DNA of 64,000 nucleotides, taken from assembly GCF_005222915.1 (NCBI RefSeq), contig NZ_STFX01000001.1, positions 1 through 64,000 on the forward strand, read 5' to 3'. Shown here in pieces: positions 37,903-57,680 of the stretch. The number at the start of each line of letters is the position of its first letter. The first letter of the stretch is position 1. The DNA comes from Rhizobium sp. FKL33 (GTDB lineage: Bacteria; Pseudomonadota; Alphaproteobacteria; Rhizobiales; Rhizobiaceae). The notes beneath the pieces were generated by a model. That model worked only from the letters and a program-made list of their open reading frames with translations. It made no database searches and had not been told where the DNA came from. The position numbers were made by a program, and so were the translations under genes.

Positions 37903-38015
37903 AATCTCGGACACCTCATCAAGCATCAAAAGCGGTCGTCGGTCGGCTTTTCGCCGCGATATCGGCACTTTGCCACAAAATCCTGAAAAGGAAAACAATG
38001 TGTGGCGTTTCAGAC

Positions 38016-38038
38016 TGGTCGGAGTGGAGACATTCAAA
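38016..38038. repeat. Outer att copy (imperfect)
   Basis: TGGTCGGAGTGGAGA (15 bases identical to the 3' end of tRNA-Pro at 57604-57618), then two mismatches in the next eight. It marks the left edge of remnant element A, 114 bases upstream of the ETC complex I gene. Confidence 0.7.
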
Positions 38039-38260
38039 ATCAAGGAAGACTTTGAAATTCAACACTTTTTATCGGCGATCTGAAAAATTGTAACCGACGA
38101 CGTTTTGTTTGTGAGGATGTCTTTAGCTTCGATCCGGGGCCTTAGCAACGTCTTTTGAGAATCATCCACACACGACATATGTCGTCATTCCCTAAATTTC
38201 GCACAGCAATGCGAGCCGCTCACCTAGCGTTAGCTACCGCTTTTTGGAGGATGCTGCGAT

Positions 38261-38782
38261 TTAGACTTCGGCGAACGTTGCAGCGACCGATGAGAGCGGA
38301 ATGAACATCGCCTTGAAGTTGTTTTGGTCTTGCGCCGGATCGGCAAACACTTCGAACCCCATCGATTGGTAGATCGCCCGAACGGTATCGTTATAAGCAT
38401 GAAGCGTCAGGGCATACACGCCTACTTGCTCACGCACGTCTAGAGCTCGCTTGAAGGCGTCTAACATGAGTTGCACTCCTAGCCCCTTGGGGCCGTTTTT
38501 GTCGCGCGCAATCATGGTTAGATAAATCGAAGGAATTGCAGCAAAGCGGCCGAACTTCTTGTCAGCCTCTTCGTTCATGCCCGGTCTGAACGTCATCGTT
38601 GTTAGCGCGTAAAATCCGAGTGGCGTCTTGTCGTCTGCGTGACGCGCTACAAACACCCTTTGCGAGTAAGCTTTGTGGCTTTTAGAGGCGTTGTTCTTGA
38701 AAAAGTTATCAATTTTATCAAGGCCGCAGCAAAAAGCCCCTCGCGGATGATCGTCGAGGGGCTCGATAACAATTTCTTCCAT
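38261..38782 (-). CDS. GNAT acetyltransferase, TacT-like toxin candidate
   Basis: 173 residues. N-terminal FCCGLDKIDNFFKNNASK and VFVARHADDKTPLGFYALT follow the pattern of GNAT toxins that acetylate aminoacyl-tRNA (F-x-C-G ... L-x-x-F/Y, then G-F/Y-Y-x-L). The acetyl-CoA segment is around ARDKNGPKGLGVQLMLDA, a variant of Q-x-x-G-x-G, and YQSMGFEVF is the closing GNAT motif. A small gene lies 12 bases upstream in the usual antitoxin place. Toxin activity is inference; a plain GNAT enzyme cannot be excluded. Confidence 0.7.
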   Translation of the reverse strand: MEEIVIEPLDDHPRGAFCCGLDKIDNFFKNNASKSHKAYSQRVFVARHADDKTPLGFYALTTMTFRPGMNEEADKKFGRFAAIPSIYLTMIARDKNGPKGLGVQLMLDAFKRALDVREQVGVYALTLHAYNDTVRAIYQSMGFEVFADPAQDQNNFKAMFIPLSSVAATFAEV

Positions 38783-38794
38783 CCGCCAGACGAC

Positions 38795-38965
38795 TTACTT
38801 TGAGCGCGTCACAAACTGCGCACGGGATTCACGGATGAGCTTTGCCAAAGCCGGCACCGAAGTGGCAGGCTTTTCCATCTTGGCTTTCAACTGCTCGAAT
38901 TTAGCCGTATCATAAACAACTGGCATCGGCGTGAACTCGCCGTCATCTTTCAGAAGTGCGACCAT
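38795..38965 (-). CDS. Small protein upstream of GNAT gene, antitoxin candidate
   Basis: 56 residues from ATG 38965, with GGAGG at proper spacing; a TTG four codons earlier is less likely. It reads MVALLKDDGEFTPMPVVYD followed by a helical, basic part with many Lys and Ser, ending VTRSK. No ribbon-helix-helix motif of the DUF1778 antitoxins is evident. The place, size and 12-base gap before a TacT-like gene make an antitoxin role possible. Confidence 0.5.
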   Translation of the reverse strand: MVALLKDDGEFTPMPVVYDTAKFEQLKAKMEKPATSVPALAKLIRESRAQFVTRSK

Positions 38966-39123
38966 CTTGGCCTCCAACGTCTATGCAGAGTAAACGCAAA
39001 CAGTTAAGGATTTGTTCGGTGGCAAGCGTTATTTCTCTTCTTGCTCTCTGCGTTTTGAGAGCTAAACATAATGCGTAGTGGAATATTTAGCAACAAAAAT
39101 CCGAGACGCCGATGTTCCTGAAA

Positions 39124-39146
39124 GCCCGCCGATCTTCACCGGCGGG
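39124..39146. terminator. Conserved hairpin, copy in element A
   Basis: An 8-bp GC stem (begins GCCCGCCG, ends CGGCGGG) around ATCTTCA-like loop. The 23 bases are identical to 41607-41629 in element B, though the DNA around them differs. It sits downstream of leftward genes in both elements. Confidence 0.6.
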
Positions 39147-39211
39147 GTTCGTTATCAGGTCGCGGTGAGCGGCCTAGGCGGCTTCGTCCGGCGCGGGCGA
39201 CGCGTTCTCGA

Positions 39212-39676
39212 TCACCCGCATAAGCGCCAAAACCGATCGCCGATCACGTCCATAAGCTCGCCATCGGTGACCGCGCCGGCCATGCCCTGCCGAAGTGCTT
39301 CCACGACTTGCTCGTCGGCATAGCCGAACCGGGCGAAGCGGTGATCGGTGTTTCTGAATTCGTTGTCGAGGGCGATCATGCGGCGGTAGTGCGCGACCAT
39401 GATCTTTTCCGGCGTCTGCGCATTTGCCGGGATCGACACCGGGCCAGCGCCGGCCGCTTCGGCGGCGCGGGCGGCTTGTCGCAACGTGGCCTTGAGCCGG
39501 CCCACGGCCTCGTTAAGGGCTTCCTTCGCGGCGCGGCGATCGGGCCCAAGCGGCTCGCGTAGCTCTGATTTGTTGTCGAGGAAGGGCCGAAGCTTTTTGG
39601 GAATCACCACACGGGCAAAATAGCGCCCACCACGATCCAGAAGATAGGGGATATCAGCCAATGCCTTTTTCGCCAT
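39212..39676 (-). pseudogene. Truncated integrase, N-terminal part only
   Basis: 154 residues. The start LADIPYLLDRGGRYFARVVIPKKLRPFLDNK resembles the N-terminal arm-binding part of the full integrase in element B (GRHIDFNRGQYRARIIVPVELRPF), read in pieces. The core-binding and catalytic domains are absent: the frame ends at 39212. A frame shifted by one continues to 39174-39176 with VIENASPAPDEAA, which may be the tail of a different, deleted gene. Orientation and distance to the att copy match the intact integrase. Confidence 0.75.
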
Positions 39677-39776
39677 TTATCGAAGCCCGTTTGTAACAAC
39701 GATTGTAACAGGGTTTCGAACAAAGGTCGTTGTTTTTCAACGTTTTTCAGGCGTTTCAGGCACTTACGTTACAAAG

Positions 39777-39802
39777 AAATGGTCGGAGTGGAGAGATTCG
39801 AA
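39777..39802. repeat. attL of element B
   Basis: 26 bases identical to 57601-57626, which contain the 3' end of tRNA-Pro (starts AAATGGTCGGAGTGGAGAGA). Identity ends on both sides. Together the two copies bound element B. Confidence 0.9.
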
Positions 39803-40047
39803 ATCGCACCGCGTCCGACTATTCTTTGTATTTCAATCACTTATAGAGCCCTCATTCGCAGTTTTTGTAGCAAATTATATTGTGTGTTTTGAAGCACAAT
39901 CGGCGACTCTGAAAGCCTGCCGCTCCAATAGCTCTGTCGCGTTGCCGAATCAAGAGGGCTGAAAAGTGCTGCAAACGATTCTATGTCATTTGAGGAAATC
40001 AACTTCATGTTGTGGGTGATTTTATTTGGAGCAATTCAGAGTGCCAG

Positions 40048-40602
40048 TTAGTCTTCGTTTGGATCTTTGATTAGAGCAAGACGATACACCGCGAGTGCGG
40101 AGGCAATGATCAATAAAATCGAATAGACGAAAAGAAAAAAACCGATGAATGATCCGATGCTAGAGGCCCAGAAATAGGTCGGGACAACCCAAGGGTCCGA
40201 TGCTTTGTGACTGATAGCAAAGTCAATCAGCCAAGTGCCCTGAAACAGTATCGCCCAAATGAGTGAAAGAACCTGAACAAATATGAAGTGAAAAAACGTG
40301 GCATTGATTGCTTCGAGATAGGTCACACCCGGTCGCGCCTCAACTTTTCGAAGCGCACCTTTGAGTCGGCTGCCTATGATGCTAAAAAGTATGGCGTATG
40401 TGCCAAGGCTAAAGCCCAGTAACGTTGGCATGGCTGCTTCGACCCTAGAAGGCCATTGCGGCGTTAGCCACATCGAGTAGTTTAAGCCAGATATTATCAC
40501 CGCCAATCCAAAAAGCGGCGAGCCGATAAGGCCGCGAAATCCTCCGTAAGAGTGGAAGTAACGCCGAAGTCGCTTAAACAGGGCTTTCCATTGATCAAAC
40601 AT
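40048..40602 (-). CDS. Four-helix membrane protein of cargo pair
   Basis: 184 residues. Four hydrophobic segments at about 25-45 (LIGSPLFGLAVIISGL), 57-77 (MPTLLGFSLGTYAILFSIIG), 98-125 (FFHFIFVQVLSLIWAILF) and 145-175 (WASSIGSFIGFFLFVYSILLIIAS). A basic N-terminus (KALFKRLRRYF) and the basic loop RLKGALRKVEAR suggest cytoplasmic sides. No enzyme motif. It starts two bases after the stop of the DUF4747-like gene, so both are made together. Membrane effectors are common in abortive-infection systems; that role is inference from context. Confidence 0.75.
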   Translation of the reverse strand: MFDQWKALFKRLRRYFHSYGGFRGLIGSPLFGLAVIISGLNYSMWLTPQWPSRVEAAMPTLLGFSLGTYAILFSIIGSRLKGALRKVEARPGVTYLEAINATFFHFIFVQVLSLIWAILFQGTWLIDFAISHKASDPWVVPTYFWASSIGSFIGFFLFVYSILLIIASALAVYRLALIKDPNED

Positions 40603-40604
40603 AG

Positions 40605-41474
40605 CTAACGTGCTACCCGAGGAACCGCTGGCAATAGAGCGTCGAAGGCGCTGCGTTCTGATTGGACATCAGGATCGAACTTGTCGTGAAACTCTTCCGG
40701 ATATTTCTCGCTGTTTAAATTCACCGCTCCTTTATCGTCACGGCCAATTACTTTTACCGACCCATTGTCCAGTGCGATTTTGCTTATCCTTTTTATATCA
40801 TCGTCTGGCTCTATAGAGCCCCTCGCATCTGCCTTATATTTAACGGTAAATTCTCTACTTTTTGTATTTGCGAGATGAGCCTCGATGTTTTTCTCAAAAT
40901 CATCGTCGAAAACATCAGTGTTAGGCTTTAGAATAGTTACTGATATTTCTTTTATGCGTTCAATTTTGAACATCTTGTCCAACGTCGCACGATCCTGAAC
41001 AATGGATATCTGAGCTTCGCCAAATTTCTCCATAACATCCAAATCCCTTGAAAGGTGGCTAAAGAAATTATGGGCAGATGGGGGTGTTAATACTTTCTTG
41101 TTGGAATAGGTCTGAAAATATAACCGATGATAGCGTGCATAAAAGGTGAAGTAAAACTGCGCAGGATTATAATGAAGGTTATCTGGTATTTTAATCTCTG
41201 AGACATCATCTTTAGTTGCCTCTTCAAGTTTCTCGGAATTGAACCAATCCCCATCGGAATCAAACTTGATAAAAGTTGTTATCACGCCTCTTATTATGCC
41301 GTCGTTCGCTTTCGATGCATCCAAAGTGGAGATCATCGCATGTCGGTCCCCATGCACCGGCCCAATTAACTTCTTGCGATAAATGTCAACCATCCAATCC
41401 ATATAAATCTCTGGGCTGTGAGGATGAAGACGAATATTTAGCGACGCCGCCGATACCTTGATTTTTCTTGCCAT
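40605..41474 (-). CDS. DUF4747-like protein, sensor candidate of cargo pair
   Basis: 289 residues, no membrane segment. AASLNIRLHPHSPEIYMDWM at the start, then GDRHAMIS and GVITTFIKFDSDGDWFN, match my memory of DUF4747, a family of unknown function found in mobile DNA; this needs a profile search. The middle has alternating strand and helix pieces and the C-terminus a mixed charged region. Strong ribosome site (AGGGGAG). Less GC-rich than the phage block. It is followed directly by the four-helix membrane protein gene, the pair lying alone between the terminator hairpin and attL, where accessory genes of satellites are often found. Confidence 0.7.
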   Translation of the reverse strand: MARKIKVSAASLNIRLHPHSPEIYMDWMVDIYRKKLIGPVHGDRHAMISTLDASKANDGIIRGVITTFIKFDSDGDWFNSEKLEEATKDDVSEIKIPDNLHYNPAQFYFTFYARYHRLYFQTYSNKKVLTPPSAHNFFSHLSRDLDVMEKFGEAQISIVQDRATLDKMFKIERIKEISVTILKPNTDVFDDDFEKNIEAHLANTKSREFTVKYKADARGSIEPDDDIKRISKIALDNGSVKVIGRDDKGAVNLNSEKYPEEFHDKFDPDVQSERSAFDALLPAVPRVAR

Positions 41475-41606
41475 TGGAATCTCCCCTTAGACTCAACAAA
41501 CCTAGTAAGCTCCAGCGTTTGTTGCAATCCTTGATCGATTCAACCGGTTCATGTAGAATCTTGCAGTGTTCTCTTTATGTTCTTTATCTGGGTTTCTGTC
41601 AATTGG

Positions 41607-41629
41607 CCCGCCGATCTTCACCGGCGGGC
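41607..41629. terminator. Conserved hairpin, copy in element B
   Basis: Same 23-base hairpin as 39124-39146. It lies 26 bases after the stop of the last phage-type gene (41655) and separates the block from the cargo pair. Confidence 0.65.
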
Positions 41630-41654
41630 TTCATTGTTAGGTCGGATTGATCGA

Positions 41655-41909
41655 CTACGCGGCGCGGCTGAGCGCTTTCACGCGGACGCGCGGCTTCTCG
41701 TCAAGTTCGCTGCCGAAAACGAAGTGGCCGGCCGTGTCATAGCCGATGACGCGCCTTTCGAGTTCCTCGACAAGCGAAGTCGCTTGTTCGTAGAAATCTG
41801 GCAGTTCGCCCTGTTTGGTGTCCTGAGCTTCATTGAGCGCATTGAAGATGACTTCAATTGCCTGCTCGCGAGGCGAGAGGTTCGCAACTGCATCCATGCT
41901 CATCGCCAT
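41655..41909 (-). CDS. Small element protein, unknown
   Basis: 84 residues from ATG 41909 (MAMSMDAVANLSPREQAIEV), mostly helical and acidic, with a short basic end (KPRVRVKALSRAA). It begins one base after the stop of the next gene upstream. Part of a four-gene set at 41655-43126. No family recognised. Confidence 0.6.
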   Translation of the reverse strand: MAMSMDAVANLSPREQAIEVIFNALNEAQDTKQGELPDFYEQATSLVEELERRVIGYDTAGHFVFGSELDEKPRVRVKALSRAA

Positions 41910-41910
41910 G

Positions 41911-42243
41911 TTACGCGGCCCCTGCCTGCGTTTCGTTTTCTTCAAGCCGATCCTTGAAAACCTGAAAATCGAAGGCGACCATGCGCAGAAGGTCAACGTA
42001 GCCCTTAAGCTCGCCGGCGATTTCAATCAGGTGATTTGCAGGGTCATCCGACGCTGCCGCTTCTTTGGCGACCTGCTCAAGAAACTCGTTCAGATCCTCA
42101 TATTCTGAGGTCGGTGCGAGCGCCATCGACGGGAAGTACGCCCGATTGATCCGGCCGGATTTGCCGCGCCTGACAAACTTCTCATCAACGAACCGGGCAA
42201 AAAGCTCTTGTTCGGTCATCGTTGCTGAAGATGTGGAGTTCAT
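41911..42243 (-). CDS. Small element protein, unknown
   Basis: 110 residues: TEQELFARFVDEKFVRRGKS near the start, then a helical and acidic centre (EYEDLNEFLEQVAKEAAAS) and LIEIAGELKGYVDLLRM. ATG 42243; an in-frame ATG at 42219 is another possible start. Preceded by a structured 117-base gap. No family recognised. Confidence 0.6.
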   Translation of the reverse strand: MNSTSSATMTEQELFARFVDEKFVRRGKSGRINRAYFPSMALAPTSEYEDLNEFLEQVAKEAAASDDPANHLIEIAGELKGYVDLLRMVAFDFQVFKDRLEENETQAGAA

Positions 42244-42277
42244 GCTACTATCACTTTCTGCCCTATGGGCTTTGTGT

Positions 42278-42353
42278 GGCAGGTGTAAGCGCCTGCCTCG
42301 CTCATGCGTCTGCCGGAAAGGGTGCGGGTTCCAATCGACTCCCTATCCGGCAG
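42278..42353 (-). other. Structured gap between small element genes
   Basis: Two inverted repeats: GGCAGG / CCTGCC at 42278-42297, and a 13-bp stem with one mismatch (CTGCCGGAAAGGG at 42310-42322 with 42341-42353). They could be a terminator or leader for the gene at 42243. A weak tRNA-like look was rejected. Confidence 0.4.
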
Positions 42354-42360
42354 AACCTCT

Positions 42361-42879
42361 TTATGACTGATCATCGTCCAAGCTTTGGGCCAGCGCCATC
42401 AACGCAGCGGCCTCTTCTGGAAGAACGAACGTCTGATATTCGTGGCGCGATTTCTTGCCGTAGCCCTGATAGAGCGTCATGAGCTGCGTCATCTCTGCAA
42501 TGTCTTTTGCATCCCTACTTCCGACTTCAGGGCTGGCCTGAAGCCGGGCCATGATCTTTTCTTGCTTAAAGAGCGCGATCAACTGCGCGAGGATGCGCGA
42601 CACTTCGAGACAGCTTGTGATCGCCGATGCAATGGCGATCATTTCCTGTCCATTCTTGCCGGGCTTGAGCGTCTCAGGCGGCAGAGAAGACATAACCTCA
42701 AGCGCATATTCGAGCGCGCCGGAGCGGTCTTCGTCTTCGGCGACCCATTCAAAGAAGCCGTGTTGCAGGAATGACGTGTCGAGCGGCTTCTTCTCGATCT
42801 CCAAAAGCCCTGCCTTGATTGCCTTCTGGCGTTCGCGCCAGCGCTTTTGCTTTTCTGCGTTTGTCAGTGCCATAACCAT
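42361..42879 (-). CDS. Phage-type protein with basic N-terminal helix
   Basis: 172 residues. The start ALTNAEKQKRWRERQKAIKA is the basic helix seen at the front of many phage and mobile-element proteins that bind nucleic acid; the rest is helical and acidic. AAGGGTT precedes ATG 42879. It might regulate or bind DNA, but no family domain is recognised beyond that helix. Confidence 0.6.
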   Translation of the reverse strand: MVMALTNAEKQKRWRERQKAIKAGLLEIEKKPLDTSFLQHGFFEWVAEDEDRSGALEYALEVMSSLPPETLKPGKNGQEMIAIASAITSCLEVSRILAQLIALFKQEKIMARLQASPEVGSRDAKDIAEMTQLMTLYQGYGKKSRHEYQTFVLPEEAAALMALAQSLDDDQS

Positions 42880-42937
42880 AACCCTTGCTAGTAACCTTGC
42901 GTTTAGAGGTAACGGTTATGATTGGCAAGCCCAGAAG

Positions 42938-43126
42938 TTACGCCACTTGCAAAATTTCTTCCGCGTCCACCGGCCGGCTGCTCTCCGGCCAAATGCCAAG
43001 GTGCTCGCCGAGCGCCAAGACAACGTCGTCCCGGATGCGGTCTTTCAGGATGCCGCCGAGGAAGCTGTCGAGGATAGAATCGACATACCGGGAGTGATCT
43101 TCGTCATTCATGTAGATTGCAGTCAT
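42938..43126 (-). CDS. Small element protein, first of the distal operon
   Basis: 62 residues: MTAIYMNDEDHSRYVDSILD, then SFLGGILKDRIRDDVVLALGEHLG. Acidic and helical. AAGGGG precedes the ATG. It is the promoter-proximal gene behind the palindrome at 43214-43235. Function unknown. Confidence 0.55.
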   Translation of the reverse strand: MTAIYMNDEDHSRYVDSILDSFLGGILKDRIRDDVVLALGEHLGIWPESSRPVDAEEILQVA

Positions 43127-43192
43127 GTTCGCCCCTTCGTTGGTTGCGTCACAAGATCTGAATCATTCGCTCTCGGTCGTCAAGGATTTTTT

Positions 43193-43223
43193 AATATAAA
43201 TATCAATGGGTTAGATCAGTCAA
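43193..43223 (-). promoter_or_regulatory. Leftward promoter overlapped by palindrome
   Basis: On the minus strand TTGACT (43218-43223) and TATATT (43193-43198) with 19 bases between; TTTATA at 17 bases is an alternative -10. The -35 box lies inside the 22-bp palindrome, so a protein bound there would block it. Confidence 0.5.
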
Positions 43224-43235
43224 TATTGACTGATC
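43214..43235. promoter_or_regulatory. Perfect 22-bp palindrome, operator candidate
   Basis: Half-site GATCAGTCAAT followed by its exact reverse complement. It lies in the divergent gap between the leftward distal operon (43126) and a possible rightward small gene (43331), and covers the leftward -35 box. Confidence 0.6.
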
Positions 43236-43330
43236 GCTTAGAAGCTTGGGATGCGGCTTGACGAAATTGTTAGAGCGCCACATATGTTGAGGCGTGAGCG
43301 CAAGAGTGCCGTCCTAATAGGCGCACTCCT

Positions 43331-43519
43331 ATGCCCAGAATCCAAAAGCAATCCCGCCCTGATCAGAAACATACGCAAGCTGTGCGTGAAGAGCCGCGTC
43401 GTCGGTTTACGAGCGCCTTCAATCAGGCGGAACGTGCCGCACGCATCGTCAACGCGATTGGGCTGATCTGGCGCTTCGTTTGTTGGCTTTGGCAAGAGCT
43501 TCAGGCCTACATAGATTGA
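43331..43519 (+). CDS. Possible small rightward protein
   Basis: 62 residues, basic first half (MPRIQKQSRPDQKHTQ..., RRRFTSAF) and a hydrophobic aromatic end (IVNAIGLIWRFVCWLWQEL). No good ribosome site. It would be divergent from the distal operon across the palindrome. Low certainty. Confidence 0.3.
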   Translation: MPRIQKQSRPDQKHTQAVREEPRRRFTSAFNQAERAARIVNAIGLIWRFVCWLWQELQAYID

Positions 43520-43534
43520 GCGACGTGCGATGCG

Positions 43535-43761
43535 CTCGCTTCGCTCGCCTCCGCGCCCTTCGGGCTTGGCCGTCCTTCACTCGCTTCGCTCGTTCCGTCC
43601 GGTCGTCTTTGGTTGCTCGCCGGGAAGTGTGTCTGTGTCGCCTGTCCATCAATCACCGGGAATAGGTCTATTCCCCCGCCTGATAGAACACATACAAGAG
43701 ACAGTGTTTCAGTCTCGTGAGTCTATCAGGCGGGGGATTGTCTGTTGATACCGTTCAACAG
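43535..43761. repeat. Cluster of direct and inverted repeats, origin candidate
   Basis: Within 227 bases: a 13-base direct repeat CTCGCTTCGCTCG at 43535-43547 and 43580-43592; a GCCC/GGGC hairpin at 43555-43565; an 18-base near-palindrome GGGAATAG..CTATTCCC at 43658-43675; a 15-bp inverted repeat at 43673-43687 / 43722-43736 with an inner GAGAC/GTCTC stem at 43698-43716; and CTGTTGA/TCAACAG at 43742-43761. The 43658 and 43673 stems share three bases, so they exclude each other. No gene lies here. Such density suggests an origin, packaging site or structured RNA. Confidence 0.5.
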
Positions 43762-44075
43762 GTAGGTAAAGAACAAAGGCTGTCAGGCCAGCGAGGAGGC
43801 TTCCATTGCCCTCGCATTAGTTCCGAATCCAATCTTTCGATTAAGCGGTTACACCTCTCGGTGCGCGCCACATGCTGCATATCACTCAACAGCCATGTGA
43901 CCGAACGTTGTGACCTTGCACAGAGCGTTCGTCTTTTGACAGTCTTCGCAGCGCTGTCGTTCTGTTCGCTTCTGGCAAGCTCATAGCGCCGGTCTAGAGT
44001 CCCTTTTTAGCGCCGTATCGTTCAAGGCCAGTATCGCATTTCCGGTCTGACAACCAAGAAATGTAAGCAAATGCC

Positions 44076-44169
44076 TTGACTGTTTGAGAGTAAAAACGTA
44101 TCTTACTTTCATCGTTCAAGGCGAAAGGGCTGGCCGGCTTCCAAAAAACAGGCCTGCCCTTTTTGTTTT
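44076..44169 (+). ncRNA. Predicted short RNA with own promoter and terminator
   Basis: TTGACT (44076-44081), 17 bases, TATCTT (44099-44104): a good promoter. Starting at about 44111, transcription would meet at 44124-44160 a 12-bp stem with one mismatch (AAAGGGC.GGCC / GGCC.GCCCTTT) followed by TTTTTGTTTTC. The product would be about 55-60 bases and is opposite to the phage block. The 12 bases ATCGTTCAAGGC occur at its 5' end and again near 44025. Confidence 0.55.
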
Positions 44170-44320
44170 CCGGTGAGGTCGATTATAGACCTGTGCTTTT
44201 GCTGGTGCAACAACTCATTTAATTTAGTGATCATGATGGCTTATGCGCATTAAACGCTAAGTCATCTCGATTCTATATTGTCGACCGTGCGGAATAATCG
44301 TAGAATAGTCGTTCAACCAA

Positions 44321-44342
44321 AAGCGAGGAATTCCCCTCGCTT
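44321..44342 (-). terminator. Terminator of the packaging/tape-measure operon
   Basis: On the minus strand AAGCGAGG, six bases, CCTCGCTT, then TTGG (four Ts in all). It lies 60 bases past the tape-measure stop. Confidence 0.65.
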
Positions 44343-44361
44343 GTCCGGTCGTATTGATCAG

Positions 44362-44396
44362 AACGCCTGCAAGGAAAGCCCCGCCTTGCGGGCGTT
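44362..44396. terminator. Second hairpin after the tape measure
   Basis: A 13-bp stem with one G-T pair (AACGCCTGCAAGG with 44384-44396) directly before the tape-measure stop at 44402. On the plus strand it is followed by TTGCTTT, so it may act both ways. Confidence 0.5.
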
Positions 44397-44401
44397 TTGC
44401 T

Positions 44402-47107
44402 TTATCGTCTCCTGTTCAACATATTGCCGACGCGCATCTGTTTTCTCAACTCGTCGACCACGACGCCGCGCATGGTGTTTTCCATCTCTTTGCCGACGCG
44501 CTTGGCGAGGTCGGCGTTTTGCTCGGGTGTTCCGCCGTTGGCGTTCACGGTGACAGGCGCGTTGATGGTGACGTTCTGCGCCGCGCCGCCGTTGCCGGAA
44601 GAACTTGAGCGGCCGGCGAACCTGTCCATCTGATACGGCGGATTGCTGCCGACGTAGCCGCCCGATGCGAAGCCCTTGAGCGCCGAGCGGTGCGCCGCCT
44701 CAAGATTGCCGACGCCGATGCGGCGGACGGCTTGGGCGCTCATGACGTATTCGCCGCGATGCACGACGCCGGCCGGCTGATACTTGCCGCCGTCGCCGGT
44801 ATATCCGCCGTTGGCCCAGCCGAACAACGCGCCGAAGATGCCGCCGCCCTTTGACATACCGAAGAGACCGGCCAAGGGGCCTTTCCCGAGCAAAGACGCC
44901 TGAAGCGCCGCGTCGACAAGGTTGTTCAGCAAGTTGCGGAGCGCGCCGTTCAATGTCTGCGTTCCGGTGAGAAGGCCAGAAAGCGACGACGTGAAGCTCT
45001 CCGCGAAATATTGCTGTGCCTGCTTCAAGCCTTCGGTCGATGTCGCAACCTCCCGGTTCTTGCCGTTCAACTGGTCGGTCATCGCAATCTTCTGGCGAAG
45101 CTTGGCGATCTCGGCGTCGGACAAGGTGACGCCGTCGCGCTTCAACTGCGCAAGACGATCATACAATTCGAGTTCGACGCGCTTCTGACTCTCCGACATG
45201 CCGGAAAGAGACTGTTCGAAGCGGGCGCGGCTAAGGCCTTCGTCGATTGCCTGATTCAGGTTGCGCCGGGCGTCGGCTTGGCGCTGCAAAAGTTCGGTCT
45301 GGCGTTCCTGTCCCGGCGACGGGTCAAGCTGCTGCTGTCCGGTCGGTGTTCCCGCGTAGGCGTTCCGGATGGTGGAATCATCCACGCGCTGAAGACCTTC
45401 CCAGCGCCCACGCAACGCGTCGACGTTGCCGCCTGTGCTGCGGAGAATCCACCGGGCGATTTCGTCCTGTGTCGCGGCGTCGAAGGTCCGATCGCCGGCA
45501 AGGCCCATTTGGCGCATGGCGTCCTGAAGCGTCTGGCGCGTGATCTGGTATCGGCCCACGGCGGACGAATTGAAAGTGTTGGCGGGGTTGGCGAGCATAC
45601 GGCCCTGAAGCGCCATGATCTCGTCCAACGTCATGCCGGTGAGGTTGACCGCGCCGCCTGTATAAGCGCCGTAGCCGAGCGTCTCGTTATAACCGCGCCC
45701 CCTGTCGGTGCCTTCGGCCGCGCCGATCAAGTCGAGGATATTGTCGTGTTGACCATAGGTCGCGATCGATCGGGCGCGATTGGCGAGGTCCGTCGCCTGC
45801 ATGAGTTCGCCCATAGAGCGGGCGTTTCGCGCGGCGTTCATGTATGCGGTGTTCAGGGCGTCGGACTGTGCCAGCGCGTCGAGGTCGGCTTTCAGGCCGG
45901 GAACCATGGCCTTCAGTTCAGCCAGGGCGGTTTTGAAGTTGCTCGCCGCCGTGGCGTTGCGGTCGAAGGCCGGCGAAAGCTGTTCACTGGAATCCTTGAC
46001 GCCGTCGAGCGCCGGACGAGTGTCCTGCAATGCCTGTTGCACTTCGCGAATGCGCGCGTCCACGTCCCGAAGGTTGGCCTTGACGCTCTCGTCAAAGCCG
46101 AGCGAGCGGGCAACCGGCGACATACCGTCAAGCTCTGCCATGAGTTCGGCGCGGCGCTTGAGAAGGTCATTGAGTTCGGAAAGCTCTTGGCGCTGATCAT
46201 AGTCGCGGCGGGCATTGTCGAGCGCGCCGGGTGCAAGCCGGGTGCCGTCGAGCCATTTATCAGCGCCGACGCTTGCGCCTGCGTCGCGGATGGCCTGTGC
46301 AATCGAGGCGGCGACGTTCGCGCCGTCGATGGCTGCGGCCTTGGCCCGAACGGTGAAGTTCCGCCACATGGTTTCAAACTCGGCGTCGATGCGCTTGGCG
46401 GCTTCGATCTGTTCCTTGCTGAAGGTTGCGGCCTCACTGCGGAGCTTCTGGATTTGCTCGACGGACAAGCCGAGGGTCTTCGCAAGCTCTTCCGCGCCGG
46501 TTCCGCCGAACAGTTCGTCGAGCGCGCGCGTCTGGCCTGCCTGATCAAGCTGTTTGATCTTGCCGATCAACTCGTCGAGGAAGGCGTTCGGCTCGCGAAG
46601 CTTGCGGCCCACCTCTTCGGCGGAATAGCCGAAGCGCGTGAACCATTCCGCGCCGCCGCCTTTGCCGGTTCGGGCGAATTCATCGCCGCGAATGTTCAGT
46701 TCCTTCAAGGCGTCGGTGACGCCGTCAACGCTTGCGCCGGTCGCCTTGGCGACAAAGGCCCATTGCTGCCAAACCTTCGTCGAGACGCCAGCCTTACGGG
46801 CCTCGCGATCGACTTCGGCGACGGAATTGGCGATCTCCTTGAAGGCGAGCGCCGCCGCGCCAACGCCGGCAACCATGGCGCTGCCACGGCTGAAGGCGGC
46901 GAAACCGTTCTCGATGGTCTTGCCGATGCGGTCAAATGACCGGGAATAGGTGTCTTCAATCTTCCGCGCCGATTGCCGGGCGCGGTTTTCCATGTCGGTC
47001 GCGCCGCGTTTGTGGATTGCGTTCGCTTTCGCAATGCCCTTTTCGAGCTTGTCGACGCGAGCTTCGATGTCGACCACAAGGCCGGGAAGTGCTGCTTCAT
47101 TCGCCAT
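44402..47107 (-). CDS. Tail tape-measure-like protein with muralytic domain
   Basis: 901 residues. Long helical front (VDIEARVDKLEKGIAKANA), hydrophobic VAGVGAAALAFKEIA, and the typical lambda-family end (GVVHRGEYVMSAQAVRRIGVG, read in pieces). Between about 452 and 590 lies a domain like lambda-R/GH104 transglycosylases: LDLIGAAEGT with a likely catalytic Glu at about 466, GYGAYTGGAVNLTGMTLDEI, SSAVGRYQITRQTL and FDAATQDEIARWIL. Tape measures set tail length, and such inserted domains help cross the cell wall. It starts 9 bases after TerL. No other clear tail-tube or tip gene is present. Confidence 0.85.
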   Translation of the reverse strand: MANEAALPGLVVDIEARVDKLEKGIAKANAIHKRGATDMENRARQSARKIEDTYSRSFDRIGKTIENGFAAFSRGSAMVAGVGAAALAFKEIANSVAEVDREARKAGVSTKVWQQWAFVAKATGASVDGVTDALKELNIRGDEFARTGKGGGAEWFTRFGYSAEEVGRKLREPNAFLDELIGKIKQLDQAGQTRALDELFGGTGAEELAKTLGLSVEQIQKLRSEAATFSKEQIEAAKRIDAEFETMWRNFTVRAKAAAIDGANVAASIAQAIRDAGASVGADKWLDGTRLAPGALDNARRDYDQRQELSELNDLLKRRAELMAELDGMSPVARSLGFDESVKANLRDVDARIREVQQALQDTRPALDGVKDSSEQLSPAFDRNATAASNFKTALAELKAMVPGLKADLDALAQSDALNTAYMNAARNARSMGELMQATDLANRARSIATYGQHDNILDLIGAAEGTDRGRGYNETLGYGAYTGGAVNLTGMTLDEIMALQGRMLANPANTFNSSAVGRYQITRQTLQDAMRQMGLAGDRTFDAATQDEIARWILRSTGGNVDALRGRWEGLQRVDDSTIRNAYAGTPTGQQQLDPSPGQERQTELLQRQADARRNLNQAIDEGLSRARFEQSLSGMSESQKRVELELYDRLAQLKRDGVTLSDAEIAKLRQKIAMTDQLNGKNREVATSTEGLKQAQQYFAESFTSSLSGLLTGTQTLNGALRNLLNNLVDAALQASLLGKGPLAGLFGMSKGGGIFGALFGWANGGYTGDGGKYQPAGVVHRGEYVMSAQAVRRIGVGNLEAAHRSALKGFASGGYVGSNPPYQMDRFAGRSSSSGNGGAAQNVTINAPVTVNANGGTPEQNADLAKRVGKEMENTMRGVVVDELRKQMRVGNMLNRRR

Positions 47108-47116
47108 TGGAATTCC

Positions 47117-48733
47117 TCAAAATGTAAAAATACCCTCGCTGTCGGGGTCATTGTATCGGGATCGGTTGTCTTGGTAGATCGAGGCGAAGCGGACGGCCAT
47201 GAGCGCGGCGACGGCTCCGTCGATCTTGTCGCGGGCTTTGGACTTGTCGAACTTGCGATTGCCGGATGCGTCTTTGACGACGGCGACGTTGTCGAAGTTC
47301 CAGCGCAAGACCGGATTGCCGGCATGGTAGAATTTGCCGTCGAGAATAGCCTTCTCGACAACGTCACAGGCCGGTGACATGGAAATGAAGCCCTGTCGGA
47401 AGTCGACAACGGGAAGGTCGTCTTCCAAGAGGTTCTGCTGCGTCTTCTGTGCGCGCCATGGGTCGAACGCGATTTGCCGAACGTCATGGTCCGCGCAAAT
47501 CCGCCTGATCTCGGCTTCGACGAAGTCGTAATCGATCGCAGCGCCGGGCGTCGGTGTAATCAAGCCCCGCTTTGCCCACTCGACATAGTTCACGCCTTCG
47601 AGCCGCGACTTCTGTTCGATCACGTCTTGAGGGCAAAAAAACCATGGCCGGATGATATAGCCGCCGTCGTCGGTCGGCCATGCGGCGACGATCGCGGTCA
47701 GGTCGGACACTTGGGAGAGATCGACGCCGAGGAAGCAGGGGCGGCCCTTGAGCGCCTCATAGTCGATCGGAAGCGAGCCGCAACGGTCATAAATGACCAT
47801 ATCAACGAACGGTGACGCAGATTGATTTTGCCAGACGCCGAGATAAAGCTGCTGCAGAATTTCGCGCTCGATGATCGAATATTCGGCCTTGATCTTGCGC
47901 TCGCGAAGCGCCTGAAGCGACGGATAGCCATCGGCGAGGCCGGGAAGCAGTTTGTGCCACAGATCTTCATCACGCCAATCCGCATCGGCGGACGCTTCGA
48001 AGATGATGGGCAGGGTGTGCGGGTCCGTGAGTTCGCCGGTTTGAATACGCTTGGCGGCAAACACTTCCTTATAGGCAAGCGTCTCTTGACCGCTGCCTGC
48101 CGTTGTCAGCACGACGGTCAAGCTGTTGTTGGTCTTGTCGGCTGCTGAAGACAGAACGCGCCAAAGCTCGCGATGTTTCTCGGTCTTCCAAGCGTGAAGT
48201 TCGTCGGCAATGACCACGTTGGGCGTAGAGCCATGATGCCCCAAACCTTCGGATGAAATCGCCTCATAGCGGGCGCGGATATCCTTGTTCACGATCTGGG
48301 ATTTGTAATCCCTGATTTGAGCCTTGCGCTTATATCGCGCGTCCTGTGAGACGATAAGCGACACTTCCTCGAACAGTTCGCGTGCCTGCTTCCGGGCGAA
48401 GGCTGCGGACTGGATAAGGCCGCCGGGAATGCGTTCGGGTCCGAAGGTGCAAAGCAGAACAATCGCCGCGGCGAGTGCCGTCTTGCGTGAGCCGCGGCCC
48501 ATTTGCATGACCACCTTCTTAATGATCCGGGTGCCGTCCGGGTTGCGCGGCCCGAAGATGGCGCGAATGATACGCTCTTGCCATTCGGCCAACTGGAAAG
48601 GCTTGCCCGGTGCATTGCTCTTCGGATGCTTGTTTCTGCGCAGCCATTGAATGGCGCGTTCGCCATCGCCGAAGGTGTCCTCAATCGGCGAGTCGTCAAA
48701 CAGCCATGCCGGATAGGTAATGAGCGCGCTCAC
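47117..48733 (-). CDS. Terminase large subunit
   Basis: 538 residues. ATPase: Walker A-like MGRGSRKT and Walker B VVIADELHAW. Nuclease: FLGVDLSQVSDLTA and late DKIDGAVAAL give acidic residues for metal. It packages DNA into proheads. The class is the phage lambda/HK97-like TerL of P27-type systems. Its start overlaps the TerS stop by ATGA. It lies after the connector genes, not before the portal as in most HK97-like phages. Confidence 0.93.
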   Translation of the reverse strand: MSALITYPAWLFDDSPIEDTFGDGERAIQWLRRNKHPKSNAPGKPFQLAEWQERIIRAIFGPRNPDGTRIIKKVVMQMGRGSRKTALAAAIVLLCTFGPERIPGGLIQSAAFARKQARELFEEVSLIVSQDARYKRKAQIRDYKSQIVNKDIRARYEAISSEGLGHHGSTPNVVIADELHAWKTEKHRELWRVLSSAADKTNNSLTVVLTTAGSGQETLAYKEVFAAKRIQTGELTDPHTLPIIFEASADADWRDEDLWHKLLPGLADGYPSLQALRERKIKAEYSIIEREILQQLYLGVWQNQSASPFVDMVIYDRCGSLPIDYEALKGRPCFLGVDLSQVSDLTAIVAAWPTDDGGYIIRPWFFCPQDVIEQKSRLEGVNYVEWAKRGLITPTPGAAIDYDFVEAEIRRICADHDVRQIAFDPWRAQKTQQNLLEDDLPVVDFRQGFISMSPACDVVEKAILDGKFYHAGNPVLRWNFDNVAVVKDASGNRKFDKSKARDKIDGAVAALMAVRFASIYQDNRSRYNDPDSEGIFTF

Positions 48734-49122
48734 AGAAAATCCTCATCGTCGGCAGCGGCTTCGCCAAGGGCGGCACGTGAGCGTGCCGAAGGGGTCAAGC
48801 CGAGTTCGCCGGCCGCGCGAAGCTGCATCTGCTGCGCTTGAATGAGGGCAGTGCTTGCGGGGTGCCGCTTGCCGGATGGCAGAACGTGACCTTCGTCCTG
48901 AAGCTGGCGATGAAGCTCGCGCATTGTGCCGGTGGAAATGCAGTGATTTTCCAGTGTCGCCATGTCGGCGACGGTGAGAACCTTGCGCTCAAGAATGAGG
49001 ATCGGCGCAACACGACGCCATTCCGCTTTCGCGTCCTTGGCGAGGTATGCGGGCGGCGGCGGGACGGTGACGACGGGCGAACTTCCCGGCGCGATCGAAG
49101 CTGGTTTCAGGCCGCGTGTCAT
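48730..49122 (-). CDS. Terminase small subunit, P27 family
   Basis: 130 residues: PPPPAYLAKDAKAEWRRVAP, then LTVADMATLENHC, GHVLPSGKRHPASTA and LGLTPSARSRA, the order of P27-type small subunits. It recognises the packaging site. ATGA overlaps at both ends: with the head-closure gene upstream and TerL downstream. Confidence 0.9.
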   Translation of the reverse strand: MTRGLKPASIAPGSSPVVTVPPPPAYLAKDAKAEWRRVAPILILERKVLTVADMATLENHCISTGTMRELHRQLQDEGHVLPSGKRHPASTALIQAQQMQLRAAGELGLTPSARSRAALGEAAADDEDFL

Positions 49123-49433
49123 TCGCTGGCCTCGCCTGTGATTTCGAGACCGTCGCGAACGCCAAGGTCAAGGATGCTCTTCACATTGAAAGCACGGCCC
49201 AAGAAACGGATGCGGTCGGCCGTAGTCAGGCCGGTGAAGTATTTCGTGCGGAAGGTGACACGATCGGTCCCGGCCTCGCCGAAGCCGGTCGTCGCTTCGT
49301 CGATCAACTGGCGCGCGACTTCGGCGCGAACGGTGCCGACTGTCGCCCAGGTGGAAACGATAGAGTGAAATTCGTTCTTCACCTCAACAAGGCGTTCAAT
49401 GAAGATGACGCGGGAGAGTTTGCCAGCTTGCAT
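49119..49433 (-). CDS. Head closure / head-tail adaptor (SPP1 gp16 type)
   Basis: 104 residues: MQAGKLSRVIFIERLVEVKN, then TVGTVRAEVARQL and FRTKYFTGLTTADRI, IRFLGRAFNVKSIL. The beta-barrel pattern fits SPP1 gp16-like proteins that close the filled head. It directly abuts the DUF3168 gene upstream and overlaps TerS downstream. Confidence 0.75.
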   Translation of the reverse strand: MQAGKLSRVIFIERLVEVKNEFHSIVSTWATVGTVRAEVARQLIDEATTGFGEAGTDRVTFRTKYFTGLTTADRIRFLGRAFNVKSILDLGVRDGLEITGEASE

Positions 49434-49853
49434 TTACACCTTCCACCGCACCACGGCTTCAGCCGTGATAACGCCATGCACGTAGTTGAGCGCCGGGTCT
49501 GGGTCGCGCATCCATCGGATAGCCGGAAGCTGGAATTCATCGATGGAAAAGCCCTGTGTCTTCGGGGCGATCTTCAGGGCGTTGCAAACAGCAAAACCGA
49601 TATGTTTGGCCGTTTCAGCGCCGTCTTCGATGGCCCAAACATGCAAGTCGAGATAGACGCGCGCGACAAGTTGCGAGCCGGAAGCGTTGCCGAGAAAGAT
49701 GGTTTGACCGCCGCTCATGATGATCTCCGGAAGGTTCTCCGGGCGAGTGCTGCCGGCGCGGATATGATCGGGCGTGACAAGCGCTGTCACGGCTGGCGTA
49801 TTGATGAGCGTGTCGCCAATCGCTTTTTGAAGTGCAAGGGTCGGCTCAAGCAT
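49434..49853 (-). CDS. DUF3168-type tail completion protein
   Basis: 139 residues: MLEPTLALQKAIGDTLIN, then VTALVTPDHIRAGSTRP, VYLDLHVWAIEDG and VHGVITAEAVVRWKV. This matches DUF3168, the tail terminator protein placed between HK97 gp10 and the tube gene in many siphophages. Here no tube gene follows; the head-closure gene does. It overlaps the gp10 gene by 8 bases. Confidence 0.8.
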   Translation of the reverse strand: MLEPTLALQKAIGDTLINTPAVTALVTPDHIRAGSTRPENLPEIIMSGGQTIFLGNASGSQLVARVYLDLHVWAIEDGAETAKHIGFAVCNALKIAPKTQGFSIDEFQLPAIRWMRDPDPALNYVHGVITAEAVVRWKV

Positions 49854-50277
49854 TCTTCGCCGCCTTCTTAATTGCGGACGTGATCGCGGCCTTGAGGCGG
49901 CGATCGATGCGGGTTCGCGCCAAGCGCCAGCTAGGACGAACGAACGGCTGCGCTTCCATCTTCACGGTTCCGAATTCCAGCATGTGACCATACCGGGCGT
50001 GGGTGTCGCCGACGGTGACGAGCACCTGATTAGGGCCGGCCGTGCGCTTGCCGCCGTTGGCCGCATAGGGCGGCGTCGTCTCGCCGGGGCCGGTGACGGT
50101 GATCGACTCCTTGAGGTTGCCGGTGTCTTCGGGGACCAACGCGCGCATGTTCCGCGCGACTTCCTCGCCGCTGCGCATGAGCGCCGGCCGAAGTGCTTCC
50201 AAGATCGCGGTCGGGATAGCGTTCAAGCGCTTTTCAAGGTCGCGGGATTGTTCGGTGAGTGACTTAGGTTCGGACAT
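49846..50277 (-). CDS. HK97 gp10-like neck protein
   Basis: 143 residues: SRDLEKRLNAIPTAILEALRP, then MRALVPEDTGNLKESI and HARYGHMLEFGTVKMEAQPFVRPSW, read in parts. The VPxDTGxLxxSI and EFGT...PF(V/M)RP motifs are signatures of HK97 gp10. Overlaps the connector gene by 14 bases and DUF3168 by 8. Confidence 0.9.
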   Translation of the reverse strand: MSEPKSLTEQSRDLEKRLNAIPTAILEALRPALMRSGEEVARNMRALVPEDTGNLKESITVTGPGETTPPYAANGGKRTAGPNQVLVTVGDTHARYGHMLEFGTVKMEAQPFVRPSWRLARTRIDRRLKAAITSAIKKAAKNA

Positions 50278-50605
50278 AACCCGTCACCTGAACACGATAC
50301 GGACGCAGCAAATCGGCGACGCCATAGGGGATTTCGTTGCCGCTGGTGCCGACAAGCACGGTTTCGCGGTTGGCGTAGAAGTGCGCGGCAAGCTGCAAGA
50401 TGGCCTGTTTGATGTCGATCGGAACCGGCGTGAAGTCCGAAAGCGGCTTGCCGAGCATGGCGACGGCGCGGCTCTCCGCTGCGTCGAGATAGTGCTGAAG
50501 CAACTCGTCGGTGCCGGCCGCAAGTCCGCCGAGCGCGCCGGGATCGATCAATTCGTCGCTGCCAATGTGCGCTTTGAAGAGCGCAAGGCTGATGATGTTG
50601 GTCAT
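50264..50605 (-). CDS. Head-tail connector (gp6 type)
   Basis: 113 residues: LFKAHIGSDELIDPGAL, then LLQHYLDAAESRAVAMLGKPLSD, DIKQAILQLAAHFYANRETV and GVADLLRPYRV. This is the helical HK97 gp6-like connector. Start overlaps the HTH-repeat gene stop as ATGA. Confidence 0.88.
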   Translation of the reverse strand: MTNIISLALFKAHIGSDELIDPGALGGLAAGTDELLQHYLDAAESRAVAMLGKPLSDFTPVPIDIKQAILQLAAHFYANRETVLVGTSGNEIPYGVADLLRPYRVQVTGYVRT

Positions 50606-51333
50606 TCTTGGGTCGTCTTTCCTGAAAAACTTATTTTGGGCGTCTCTTGCGCGTGACTCCCGCCGCCGGTCCCTAAGCGCTCTGAAAAGTCCTCAACCAC
50701 CCCCGGGGTGCTGTCATTGGCCCGTTGTGGTCCGTTTCCGCCGGGTCCACCCATGGCGATTGCTTCATGCTGGCCATGCTTGGAGATGCGAGCGCAAAGG
50801 GCGTCGTAGCTGATGCCGAGATGGTGAGCCCATTCCTTGCGGGTGAAGCTCAAGCCGTCGAAGGTGATGCGCTTGTCGGACTTGCTCCGCTGCTTGCCGC
50901 CTTGACCGATCGCGGCTTCAAGGCTGCCAAGTTTCTTTGCGCGTGCAAACAGGGTTGAGATGCTGACGCCGAGAAGGTTCGCCCATTGCCGCGCCGTGAG
51001 GGATCGACCGTTGACGGTATGGATTTTGGCGACACGGCCATGATGGTCATCCGGCGCTTTCGTCTTGGGCTTCGACTGCTGCACAGGCGCGACGGGAAGC
51101 CCTTCATTGTCTTTTGGCTGCGTCGACCACAACGGCATGGTTTGGCCTTGCTCGCCATAGATGACGGTGAGGAACTGGCGACGGCGCTCTTCCTGCTTAT
51201 GTCTGGAATAGGCGAGGGCGCGCGCGAGGGCTTGCCTGCTGTCACGTTGGAATTCTTCTGCATCGATTTGGCGAGCACGTTGGGCGGGTGTCACTGGATG
51301 GACCTCGCTTGATTGCGATCTTCCAATGTGCAA
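50602..51333 (-). CDS. Protein with two phage-type HTH repeats
   Basis: 243 residues from TTG 51333 (start uncertain). Two homologous segments, GRSLTARQWANLLGVSISTL at about 110-145 and GLSFTRKEWAHHLGISYDAL at about 160-195, share G-x-S-x-T-x-x-x-W-A-x-x-L-G-I/V-S and a following R..K.G pattern. These are small HTH modules often found in phage and homing-nuclease proteins. The rest is polar and Gln/Ser/Lys-rich. It may bind DNA, perhaps as a regulator or nuclease partner of the HNH gene upstream; this is inference. Confidence 0.6.
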   Translation of the reverse strand: MHIGRSQSSEVHPVTPAQRARQIDAEEFQRDSRQALARALAYSRHKQEERRRQFLTVIYGEQGQTMPLWSTQPKDNEGLPVAPVQQSKPKTKAPDDHHGRVAKIHTVNGRSLTARQWANLLGVSISTLFARAKKLGSLEAAIGQGGKQRSKSDKRITFDGLSFTRKEWAHHLGISYDALCARISKHGQHEAIAMGGPGGNGPQRANDSTPGVVEDFSERLGTGGGSHAQETPKISFSGKTTQE

Positions 51334-51372
51334 CCGTCAGCCTTCGTTCGCGTGCGGAAAGTGGAGTCGACG

Positions 51373-51510
51373 TTGAAAACAGAAATCTGGAAGCGGCTCT
51401 CTGCGGCCGTGCTGATCGTCTTCACATTTCTGCTCGCAGCCTGGCTTCTGATCACTTTCTGGTTCGGGTTCGCGACGATGTATGGCGTGTGGTTCGGTGG
51501 TGGATTGTGA
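51373..51510 (+). CDS. Possible small membrane protein on the opposite strand
   Basis: 45 residues from TTG 51373 with GTGGAG before it: a short polar start (KTEIWKRLS) and one long hydrophobic helix (AVLIVFTFLLAAWLLITFWFG). It occupies the 190-base gap between the HTH-repeat and HNH genes and points the other way. One-helix proteins of this size can act as holins, but evidence is thin. Confidence 0.35.
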   Translation: MKTEIWKRLSAAVLIVFTFLLAAWLLITFWFGFATMYGVWFGGGL

Positions 51511-51523
51511 GAGTTGCGCCTGA

Positions 51524-51874
51524 TCATGCGTCGCGCTCCTGCTTCTGCTTGGCGCTGCTGTGACAGGGCGTGCAAAGGGGCTGCCAGTTGGCTCTTGTCC
51601 AGAACAGGCGCATGTCGCCGCGATGCGGCTTGATATGATCGACGACGTTAGCCGGCGTGGTTCGGCCCATAGCTGCGCACAGGCGGCAATGGGGATGCGC
51701 GGCGAGGTATTCACACCGGGCTTTATCCCATTCGCTCGTGTAGCCGCGTTGACGGGCTGAAGGACGGCGAGCGTCATGGCGAGCTTTGCGTTCGCGGTCC
51801 TGCTTTTGCTGACAGGTGCAACGGATGCTGGCCGGGACGATGTTGCCGCACTGGCAGAGGCGAGGCGGGCGCAT
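51524..51874 (-). CDS. HNH endonuclease
   Basis: 116 residues. Basic front with C-x-C-G and C-x-C pairs, then CRLCAAMGRTTPANVVDHIKPHRGD, TRANWQPLCTPCHSSAK: the HNH motif with the DH pair, N and final H, and CxxC zinc pairs. Phage HNH proteins of this type work with terminase in DNA cutting during packaging. Its start overlaps the previous stop by one base (TAATG). Confidence 0.9.
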   Translation of the reverse strand: MRPPRLCQCGNIVPASIRCTCQQKQDRERKARHDARRPSARQRGYTSEWDKARCEYLAAHPHCRLCAAMGRTTPANVVDHIKPHRGDMRLFWTRANWQPLCTPCHSSAKQKQERDA

Positions 51875-55829: not shown

Positions 55830-55926
55830 ATTTGCCAAGCCTGTTTAACAAATTGGCAATATTGTCCCATGGGTGATTCGAGGCGGTCAAGACCGAAAAT
55901 GAAATAATTCCTATATTGAGAGGAAT

Positions 55927-57516: not shown

Positions 57517-57603
57517 CGCCTGTTTTGTGGCAATCTTTGTAGCAGGTTTTGAAGCGAAACGTCGAGATTTGCAAGGCTTCCCGAGATCCTCAGGCTGTTC
57601 AAA

Positions 57604-57680
<77 letters not shown>

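Follow-up and report, generated by a model that had tools for sequence, protein, structure and literature searches.

The gene pair and the element that carries it

The stretch of DNA analysed here (64,000 nucleotides from Rhizobium sp. FKL33, hereafter the window) carries, in a prophage-like element, two minus-strand genes encoding a DUF4747 protein and a multi-helix membrane protein (Table 1). According to the ORF calls, the intergenic spacing from the DUF4747 gene to the membrane-protein gene is two bases, and the first gene has a strong ribosome site of its own. The pair has a G+C content of 0.442, lower than that of the element (0.577) and of positions 1-36000 of the window (0.629), and 1.7% of 1427-base windows have a G+C content as low or lower. 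Both ORFs are intact and keep the positions conserved in their families. A first-pass annotation, made from the sequence alone, had described this close spacing, the strong ribosome site, the base use unlike that of the phage block and the plan of a soluble protein followed by a multi-helix membrane protein, and these descriptions are all borne out.

Table 1. Features of the locus, with positions and strands in the 64,000-nucleotide window.
Feature	Position	Strand	Basis or remark
Third, poorer copy of the attachment repeat	38013-38041		Repeat match, 86%
Attachment repeat at the distal end, by the cargo	39777-39805		97% identical to 57601-57629
Second gene, multi-helix membrane protein, 184 aa; proposed membrane effector	40048-40602	-	phrog_20580, hydrophobic segments, model
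First gene, DUF4747 (PF15931) protein, 289 aa; proposed infection sensor/trigger	40605-41474	-	PF15931, phrog_10040, AlphaFold2 model, Foldseek
Shine-Dalgarno sequence AAGGGGAG, six bases 5' of the ATG of the first gene	41481-41488	-	Sequence
GC-rich hairpin at the border of phage block and cargo	41605-41630	+	Terminator-like on the + strand only
Tyrosine integrase, opposite end of the element	55927-57516	-	phrog_1, E 6.7e-28; Pfam Phage_integrase, E 5.9e-4, below cut-off
Attachment repeat, 29 bases, overlapping the 3' end of tRNA-Pro	57601-57629		Repeat match
tRNA-Pro	57604-57680	-	tRNA call

The element extends from 39806 to 57600 (about 17.8 kb). Between the two attachment repeats that bound it are genes for an integrase, a portal, a protease fused to the capsid, a tail tube, terminase subunits and a tape measure protein. 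Separate lysis, replication and tail-tip genes are not recognised among the element proteins scanned, mostly longer than 130 aa. The element could be either a reduced prophage or a satellite able to form capsids. The pair lies 242 bases from the repeat at the integrase-distal end, in agreement with the position by attL initially assigned to it. It had also been placed behind a terminator. A hairpin does exist at the border of phage block and cargo; however, it scores as a terminator on the plus strand only, and the genes of both the pair and the phage block are read from the minus strand. A second copy of this hairpin is found inside 39124-39171, and two related elements (L060 and L061) have similar hairpins at the equivalent border. 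No repressor-like family is recognised in the scanned ORFs adjacent to the pair, and the sole hint of a repressor in the element is an Xre-like match below cut-off (50602-51333).

On the other side of the distal repeat, positions 39212-39676 encode an integrase-like fragment (DUF6538, E 4.1e-6, 26.8 bits for a cut-off of 27), and a GNAT acetyltransferase-like ORF is found at 38261-38782, with a small ORF (38795-38977) ahead of it. Together with the third copy of the repeat, the integrase-like fragment and these two ORFs suggest that 38013-39805 is the remnant of a second, decayed element inserted in tandem at the same tRNA-Pro. The GNAT-like ORF and the small ORF possibly form an acetyltransferase toxin-antitoxin pair.

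Family and predicted fold of the DUF4747 protein

The product of the first gene matches PF15931 over profile positions 1-251 of 257 (E 1.5e-45; 156 bits for a curated cut-off of 27). This settles its provisional assignment to DUF4747, and a match of this strength rules out chance or misread ORFs. The protein also belongs with phrog_10040 (E 3.7e-75), a PHROG of unknown function.

Its structure was modelled with AlphaFold2 from 20 sequences (pLDDT 85.7). In a Foldseek search of the PDB, the model matches lambda RexA best (8TWQ chain B, E 5.7e-6, probability 1.00), with an alignment of 271 columns, gaps included, and 12% identity. RdgC comes second (E 2.9e-4) and no other match falls below 0.001. 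TM-scores over the whole model are low, 0.24-0.26 for RexA and 0.24-0.30 over RexA and RdgC. Hence, the RexA match is one of local geometry, and it is at this level that the modelled DUF4747 protein appears to carry the RexA fold. The next other folds are chains of the kinetochore CCAN complex (E 0.13 and 0.19), CENP-L/N, which we take to be IML3/CHL4. The kinetochore proteins IML3/CHL4 are described as related to RexA (PMC11077077). According to the same source, RexA was crystallised in a closed form that must rearrange for DNA binding (PMC11077077), a view with which the low TM-scores of the model would fit. When the model is compared with predicted viral proteins, uncharacterised proteins from phages take the first four places (E 3.1e-16 to 5.8e-11), and a “recombination-associated protein” ranks sixth (E 2.6e-4).

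The membrane partner

The product of the second gene, hereafter the partner, matches phrog_20580 (E 7.3e-23), again a PHROG of unknown function, and no Pfam family above cut-off. It has four hydrophobic segments. The model, built from 18 sequences (pLDDT 85.6), contains nine helices, of which three are long (50-75, 95-121 and 139-176) and one is broken (29-46). No solved relative is found by sequence at E <= 10 or by Foldseek in the PDB at E <= 0.001. Lysine and arginine residues are concentrated in the N terminus (six) and in the loop between helices 2 and 3 (five), and the positive-inside rule would place both regions in the cytoplasm. In Sbash gp31, two substitutions that abolish defence are reported in the region matching this basic N terminus and loop (PMC6426596).

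Conserved in the partner are a YGG..SP motif of the N-terminal segment and P(S/T)LLGFSLG of helix 2; helix 3 contributes His105 and Gln110. These two residues are invariant in the 18 sequences; in 13 more diverse sequences Gln110 is kept in at least 90% and His105 in fewer. Partners from other loci show 2 to 5 hydrophobic segments by a simple hydropathy count, a number that depends on the threshold.

Distribution and coupling of the two genes

PF15931 is rare. With the genome of the window counted, it is found in 1 of 61 close relatives, 4 of 297 genomes of the order, 2 of 385 of the class and 7 of 398 of the phylum, and in 3 of 72,556 plasmid records; relatives of the DUF4747 protein also occur on small Acinetobacter plasmids. 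A scan with a four-sequence alignment yielded 10 DUF4747 loci from genome contigs and as many from viral contigs, and a single-protein scan added one further locus. When single distant members served as seeds against viral contigs, four scans returned one locus, the protein of which is identical to that of L003; the DUF4747 protein of the window alone returned none. Neither window protein has a tblastn match at E 0.01 among 50,697 phage GenBank records.

In all, 35 loci (L001-L014 and L016-L036) are considered, a number that does not count those from the partner-profile and tape-measure searches. Leaving out L012 (same place as L002), L029 and L033 gave 32 for the alignments; the last two were judged by their match statistics, which equal those of L028 and L024. 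Merging loci with identical proteins (L021 with L010, L036 with L003) gave 30 distinct loci. The start codon was chosen by hand, and is not always ATG, for the DUF4747 genes of L006, L007 and L009 and for the partner genes of L006, L009 and L011, because the longest frame began further upstream and partly overlapped the neighbouring gene.

The partner lies directly downstream of the DUF4747 gene in all 30 distinct loci, the window included. It is complete in 28 of them and cut by the end of the contig in two (L022 and L032), where the frame shows the same N-terminal motif. The widest gap noted between the two genes is 38 bases (L008). Leave-one-out profiles, each made of the 27 others, recover all 28 complete partners with E 1.2e-6 or better, L008 being the weakest. 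Moreover, pairwise distances between DUF4747 proteins and between partners are correlated over 27 loci, the fragment L035 being excluded (r 0.917; none of 2000 permutations as high), and the correlation is 0.824 when limited to pairs below 50% identity. A partner profile matches 8 of 396 phylum genomes (a sample whose list possibly differs from that of the 398 used for DUF4747). In seven of these, the match adjoins a DUF4747 gene; these seven are rows of the profile and match by construction, so that the informative result is that the 396 genomes hold no convincing orphan partner. The eighth is a 37-residue match (E 3.8e-4). Separation of the two genes across genomes had been named at the outset as the observation that would refute the candidate anti-phage system, and the partner is present in all of the 30 distinct loci.

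Defence databases and sequence tests against Rex proteins

Neither protein matches PADLOC-DB 2.0.0 at E <= 1. The first-pass annotation had held that a clear housekeeping or phage-structural match would count against a defence role. No such match above cut-off is found in Pfam or NCBIfam, and the PHROGs concerned are of unknown function only; a weak NCBIfam match to ribosomal S17e (16.5 bits for a cut-off of 72) was rejected.

The Pfam models RexA (PF15969) and RexB (PF15968) have no match among the window proteins at E <= 1, whereas the lambda proteins do match. Conversely, lambda RexA has no HMMER match to PF15931 even at E <= 10; a weak HHpred match of lambda RexA to DUF4747 has been reported (PMC6426606). 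Profile comparisons of the pair with Rex proteins show no relation, and no sequence link is found with the Butters, Toast and CarolAnn proteins. However, these sequence tests carry little weight, since lambda and actinophage Rex proteins, compared as a control, give the same negative result. Indeed, the RexB proteins of accepted systems fail to detect one another. An alignment by eye of the partner with RexB gained no backing from a 28-sequence profile, by which RexB-like proteins score no better than shuffled ones (52 membrane-ORF decoys). The link to Rex therefore rests on fold, gene order and topology. DefenseFinder is reported to have drawn on Pfam or COG for the RexAB rule that it applies (PMC9090908). 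Since the pair is matched by neither the RexA nor the RexB model of Pfam, a rule of this kind should miss it.

Comparison with known RexAB-like systems

The pair resembles lambda RexA/RexB in that a soluble protein is followed by a four-pass membrane protein on a prophage, and RexA is the top PDB fold of the DUF4747 model. It differs in being unmatched by the Pfam RexA and RexB models, in having its own ribosome site and in standing beside no recognised repressor. In Sbash and Butters, the exclusion genes are likewise displaced from the repressor.

Similar in plan are Sbash gp30/gp31, CarolAnn gp44/gp43 and Butters gp30/gp31, which are described as associating a DUF4747-like soluble protein with a four-pass membrane protein on a temperate phage. 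A DUF4747 domain is also spoken of in lambda RexA (PMC7542560, PMC6426606, PMC6426596). However, the soluble proteins of these phages are reported to resemble DUF4747 only weakly (for Butters, HHpred probability 69 and E 140; PMC7542560), whereas the window protein is a full PF15931 member. Both genes of the pair are required for exclusion by Sbash and CarolAnn, for which a RexAB-like membrane depolarisation was proposed (PMC6426596, PMC6426606). In Butters, phages are blocked by gp30 without its partner, and gp31 reduces the effect (PMC7542560).

RexABpp of Pseudomonas putida prophage P1 (PP_5643-5644) is also made up of a RexA-like DNA-binding protein and a four-helix membrane effector. The likeness is drawn from its published description, not from sequence, and RexABpp lies near a CI-like repressor, unlike the window pair. 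Its RexA-like protein binds DNA and, when overexpressed, causes membrane leakage via the membrane partner; a subpopulation of the cells is affected, and no depolarisation is seen (PMC12894663). The same 2026 paper counts five described RexAB-like systems (PMC12894663). Finally, a “DUF4747/CarolAnn prophage system” is reported in another 2026 paper as an immune operon behind capK-capS in 17 of 443 capKS loci (PMC13373217); in contrast, neither capK nor capS is recognised in the three ORFs scanned upstream of the window pair. In a Salmonella genome, a DUF4747 gene of 894 bp carries the locus tag preceding that of a 606-bp hypothetical gene (PMC11181664), and the two may be the same pair.

Thus, the initial suggestion that the pairing might be undescribed does not hold, DUF4747-like proteins with four-pass partners having been published both as RexAB-like exclusion systems and as “DUF4747/CarolAnn” operons. 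Within the literature searched, the new elements are the connection of true PF15931 proteins to Rex at the level of predicted fold, their partner family, which the Pfam RexB model does not cover, and the slot in which the cargo is swapped, described below.

Sister elements and neighbouring genes

A relative of the tape measure protein is found in 8 of 121 genomes of the family, the genome of the window included, with nine matches, and the cargo side was inspected for four of these in three genomes. In one element of G387, a genome of the same genus, the tape measure protein is 89% identical to that of the window. Beyond a hairpin of the same kind, its cargo slot (L060:8773-9948, contig G387:C14) holds an ORF of 391 aa in the opposite orientation that matches AIPR above cut-off (PF10592, E 1.1e-18, profile positions 3-138 of 308); this is a single family, picked from the N terminus of one ORF, and positive in one of the three genomes. 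Near the cargo place, the other sisters have an ORF of 282 aa (G387:C2), a pair of 325 and 192 aa (G395) and an ORF of 195 aa (G1063).

Known defence genes also occur beside other copies of the DUF4747 pair. In Rhizobium sp. R635 (L016), Septu PtuA is encoded two genes upstream of the pair (E 5.5e-237), and in Sphingomonas sp. AOB5 (L025) the next gene upstream is PD-Lambda-4_A (E 1.2e-171). PtuA as a recurrent neighbour was rejected: in the eight genomes searched, which leave out those of L022 and L023, a strong match is found only in that of L016. There, the next ORF gives a second, weaker PtuA match, and the PtuA count of two probably reflects two ORFs of one system; PtuA matches are also present in 6 of 14 control genomes. 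The scan covered 139 of 185 flanking ORFs (70 plus 69 from viral contigs), to the exclusion of shorter ORFs and of the flanks of L013 and L014. Flanks on viral contigs encode terminase, portal, capsid, integrase and DNA methyltransferases, with one or two of each family among the matches listed; all neighbour counts are raw. MADS-like, AriA-like and RtcR-like PADLOC matches (from the 25 of 113 families listed) are not tied to loci and are not used here.

A probable RexAB-type exclusion cassette

We consider it likely that the pair is an intact, mobile phage-exclusion cassette of the RexAB type, carried as cargo by the element. The first-pass annotation had likewise seen in it a cargo with a possible role in abortive infection, an idea now backed by the coupling in 30 of 30 loci, the RexA-like predicted fold, the AIPR match in the slot of a sister element and the defence neighbours.

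Around the observed gene structure, families, strict coupling, fold resemblance and cargo position, a mechanism can be proposed whose dimerisation, DNA binding, trigger and membrane damage would be transferred from the Rex literature. The DUF4747 protein, through its RexA/RdgC fold, would probably dimerise around DNA and recognise an invading phage by one of its components or by a DNA intermediate. When triggered, the DUF4747 protein would act on the multi-helix membrane protein, which would open or deform the inner membrane, leading to growth stop or cell death and aborting the infection. This pore model may need changing, because P. putida RexAB is reported to make the membrane leak in part of the cell population, with no accompanying depolarisation (PMC12894663).

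Roles could be reversed, as in Butters, with the toxic or antiviral action residing in the DUF4747 protein, which its membrane partner would tether and restrain. The behaviour of Butters gp30, active alone and weakened by gp31 (PMC7542560), is the model for this arrangement, and strict coupling suits a restrainer as well as an effector; however, CarolAnn and Sbash need both genes and growth suppression in P. putida comes from the membrane protein (PMC12894663), and we regard the reversal as unlikely. It is harder to credit that the pair acts by superinfection exclusion, blocking phage entry at the membrane instead of aborting infection after entry. Entry exclusion does often follow the plan of a membrane protein encoded by a prophage-like element, but entry blockers are usually single membrane proteins, and the soluble partner of RexA fold, which is always present, would have no obvious role.

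The second fold match, RdgC, could also point to a DNA-binding DUF4747 protein that serves the recombination or the lysis-lysogeny switch of the element with the help of the membrane protein, all the more as lambda RexA is reported to bias the lambda switch independently of RexB (PMC11077077). Yet the pair is far from the integrase, has no recognised repressor next to it and has a foreign base composition, and relatives are also found on small Acinetobacter plasmids, which leaves this role a shade more doubtful than a block at entry. Least probable of all is a decaying or neutral cargo devoid of present function: the element does look reduced and 38013-39777 resembles the remnant of a second element, but the ORFs of the pair are intact, the ribosome site is strong and family-conserved positions are kept.

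Taking the pair as a RexAB-type cassette, a wider proposition can be made, which we hold with slightly more doubt than confidence. True PF15931 pairs would form a sparse, widely spread and mostly unseen RexAB-type branch in Pseudomonadota. They would associate a DNA clamp of RexA/RdgC fold with a membrane-effector family of their own (YGG..SP, P(S/T)LLGFSLG, His and Gln of helix 3), would exchange places with other abortive-infection genes in a slot dedicated to such cargo on small tRNA-borne elements, and would be missed by PADLOC-DB 2.0.0 and presumably by DefenseFinder. RexAB dates back to Benzer's observation about 70 years ago. With its strict partner, 30 natural variants and a usable model of the sensor, this coherent family offers comparative material for studying both the trigger and the membrane effector, and profiles built around phrog_10040 and phrog_20580 could allow defence finders to recover systems that PADLOC-DB 2.0.0 misses.

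Other observations on the sister elements

The pair of G395 (L063:6193-7741) is of lower G+C and is made up of a soluble protein of 325 aa and a membrane protein of 192 aa with three hydrophobic segments. No relation to the DUF4747 pair is detectable, and tblastn against phage records gives no match for the 325-aa protein; it is possible that this pair is a further exclusion cassette. The 282-aa ORF (L061:11265-12352) resembles, by eye only, a trypsin-like protease in its N-terminal part. Inverted copies of the border hairpin are found at both of its ends, one of them overlapping the stop end of the ORF, which suggests that the border hairpins flank an exchangeable cargo slot. Finally, a tRNA-Gln gene, instead of tRNA-Pro, is found near two related elements (L061:12965-13038 and L062:6639-6712), and the element family may therefore use different tRNA sites.
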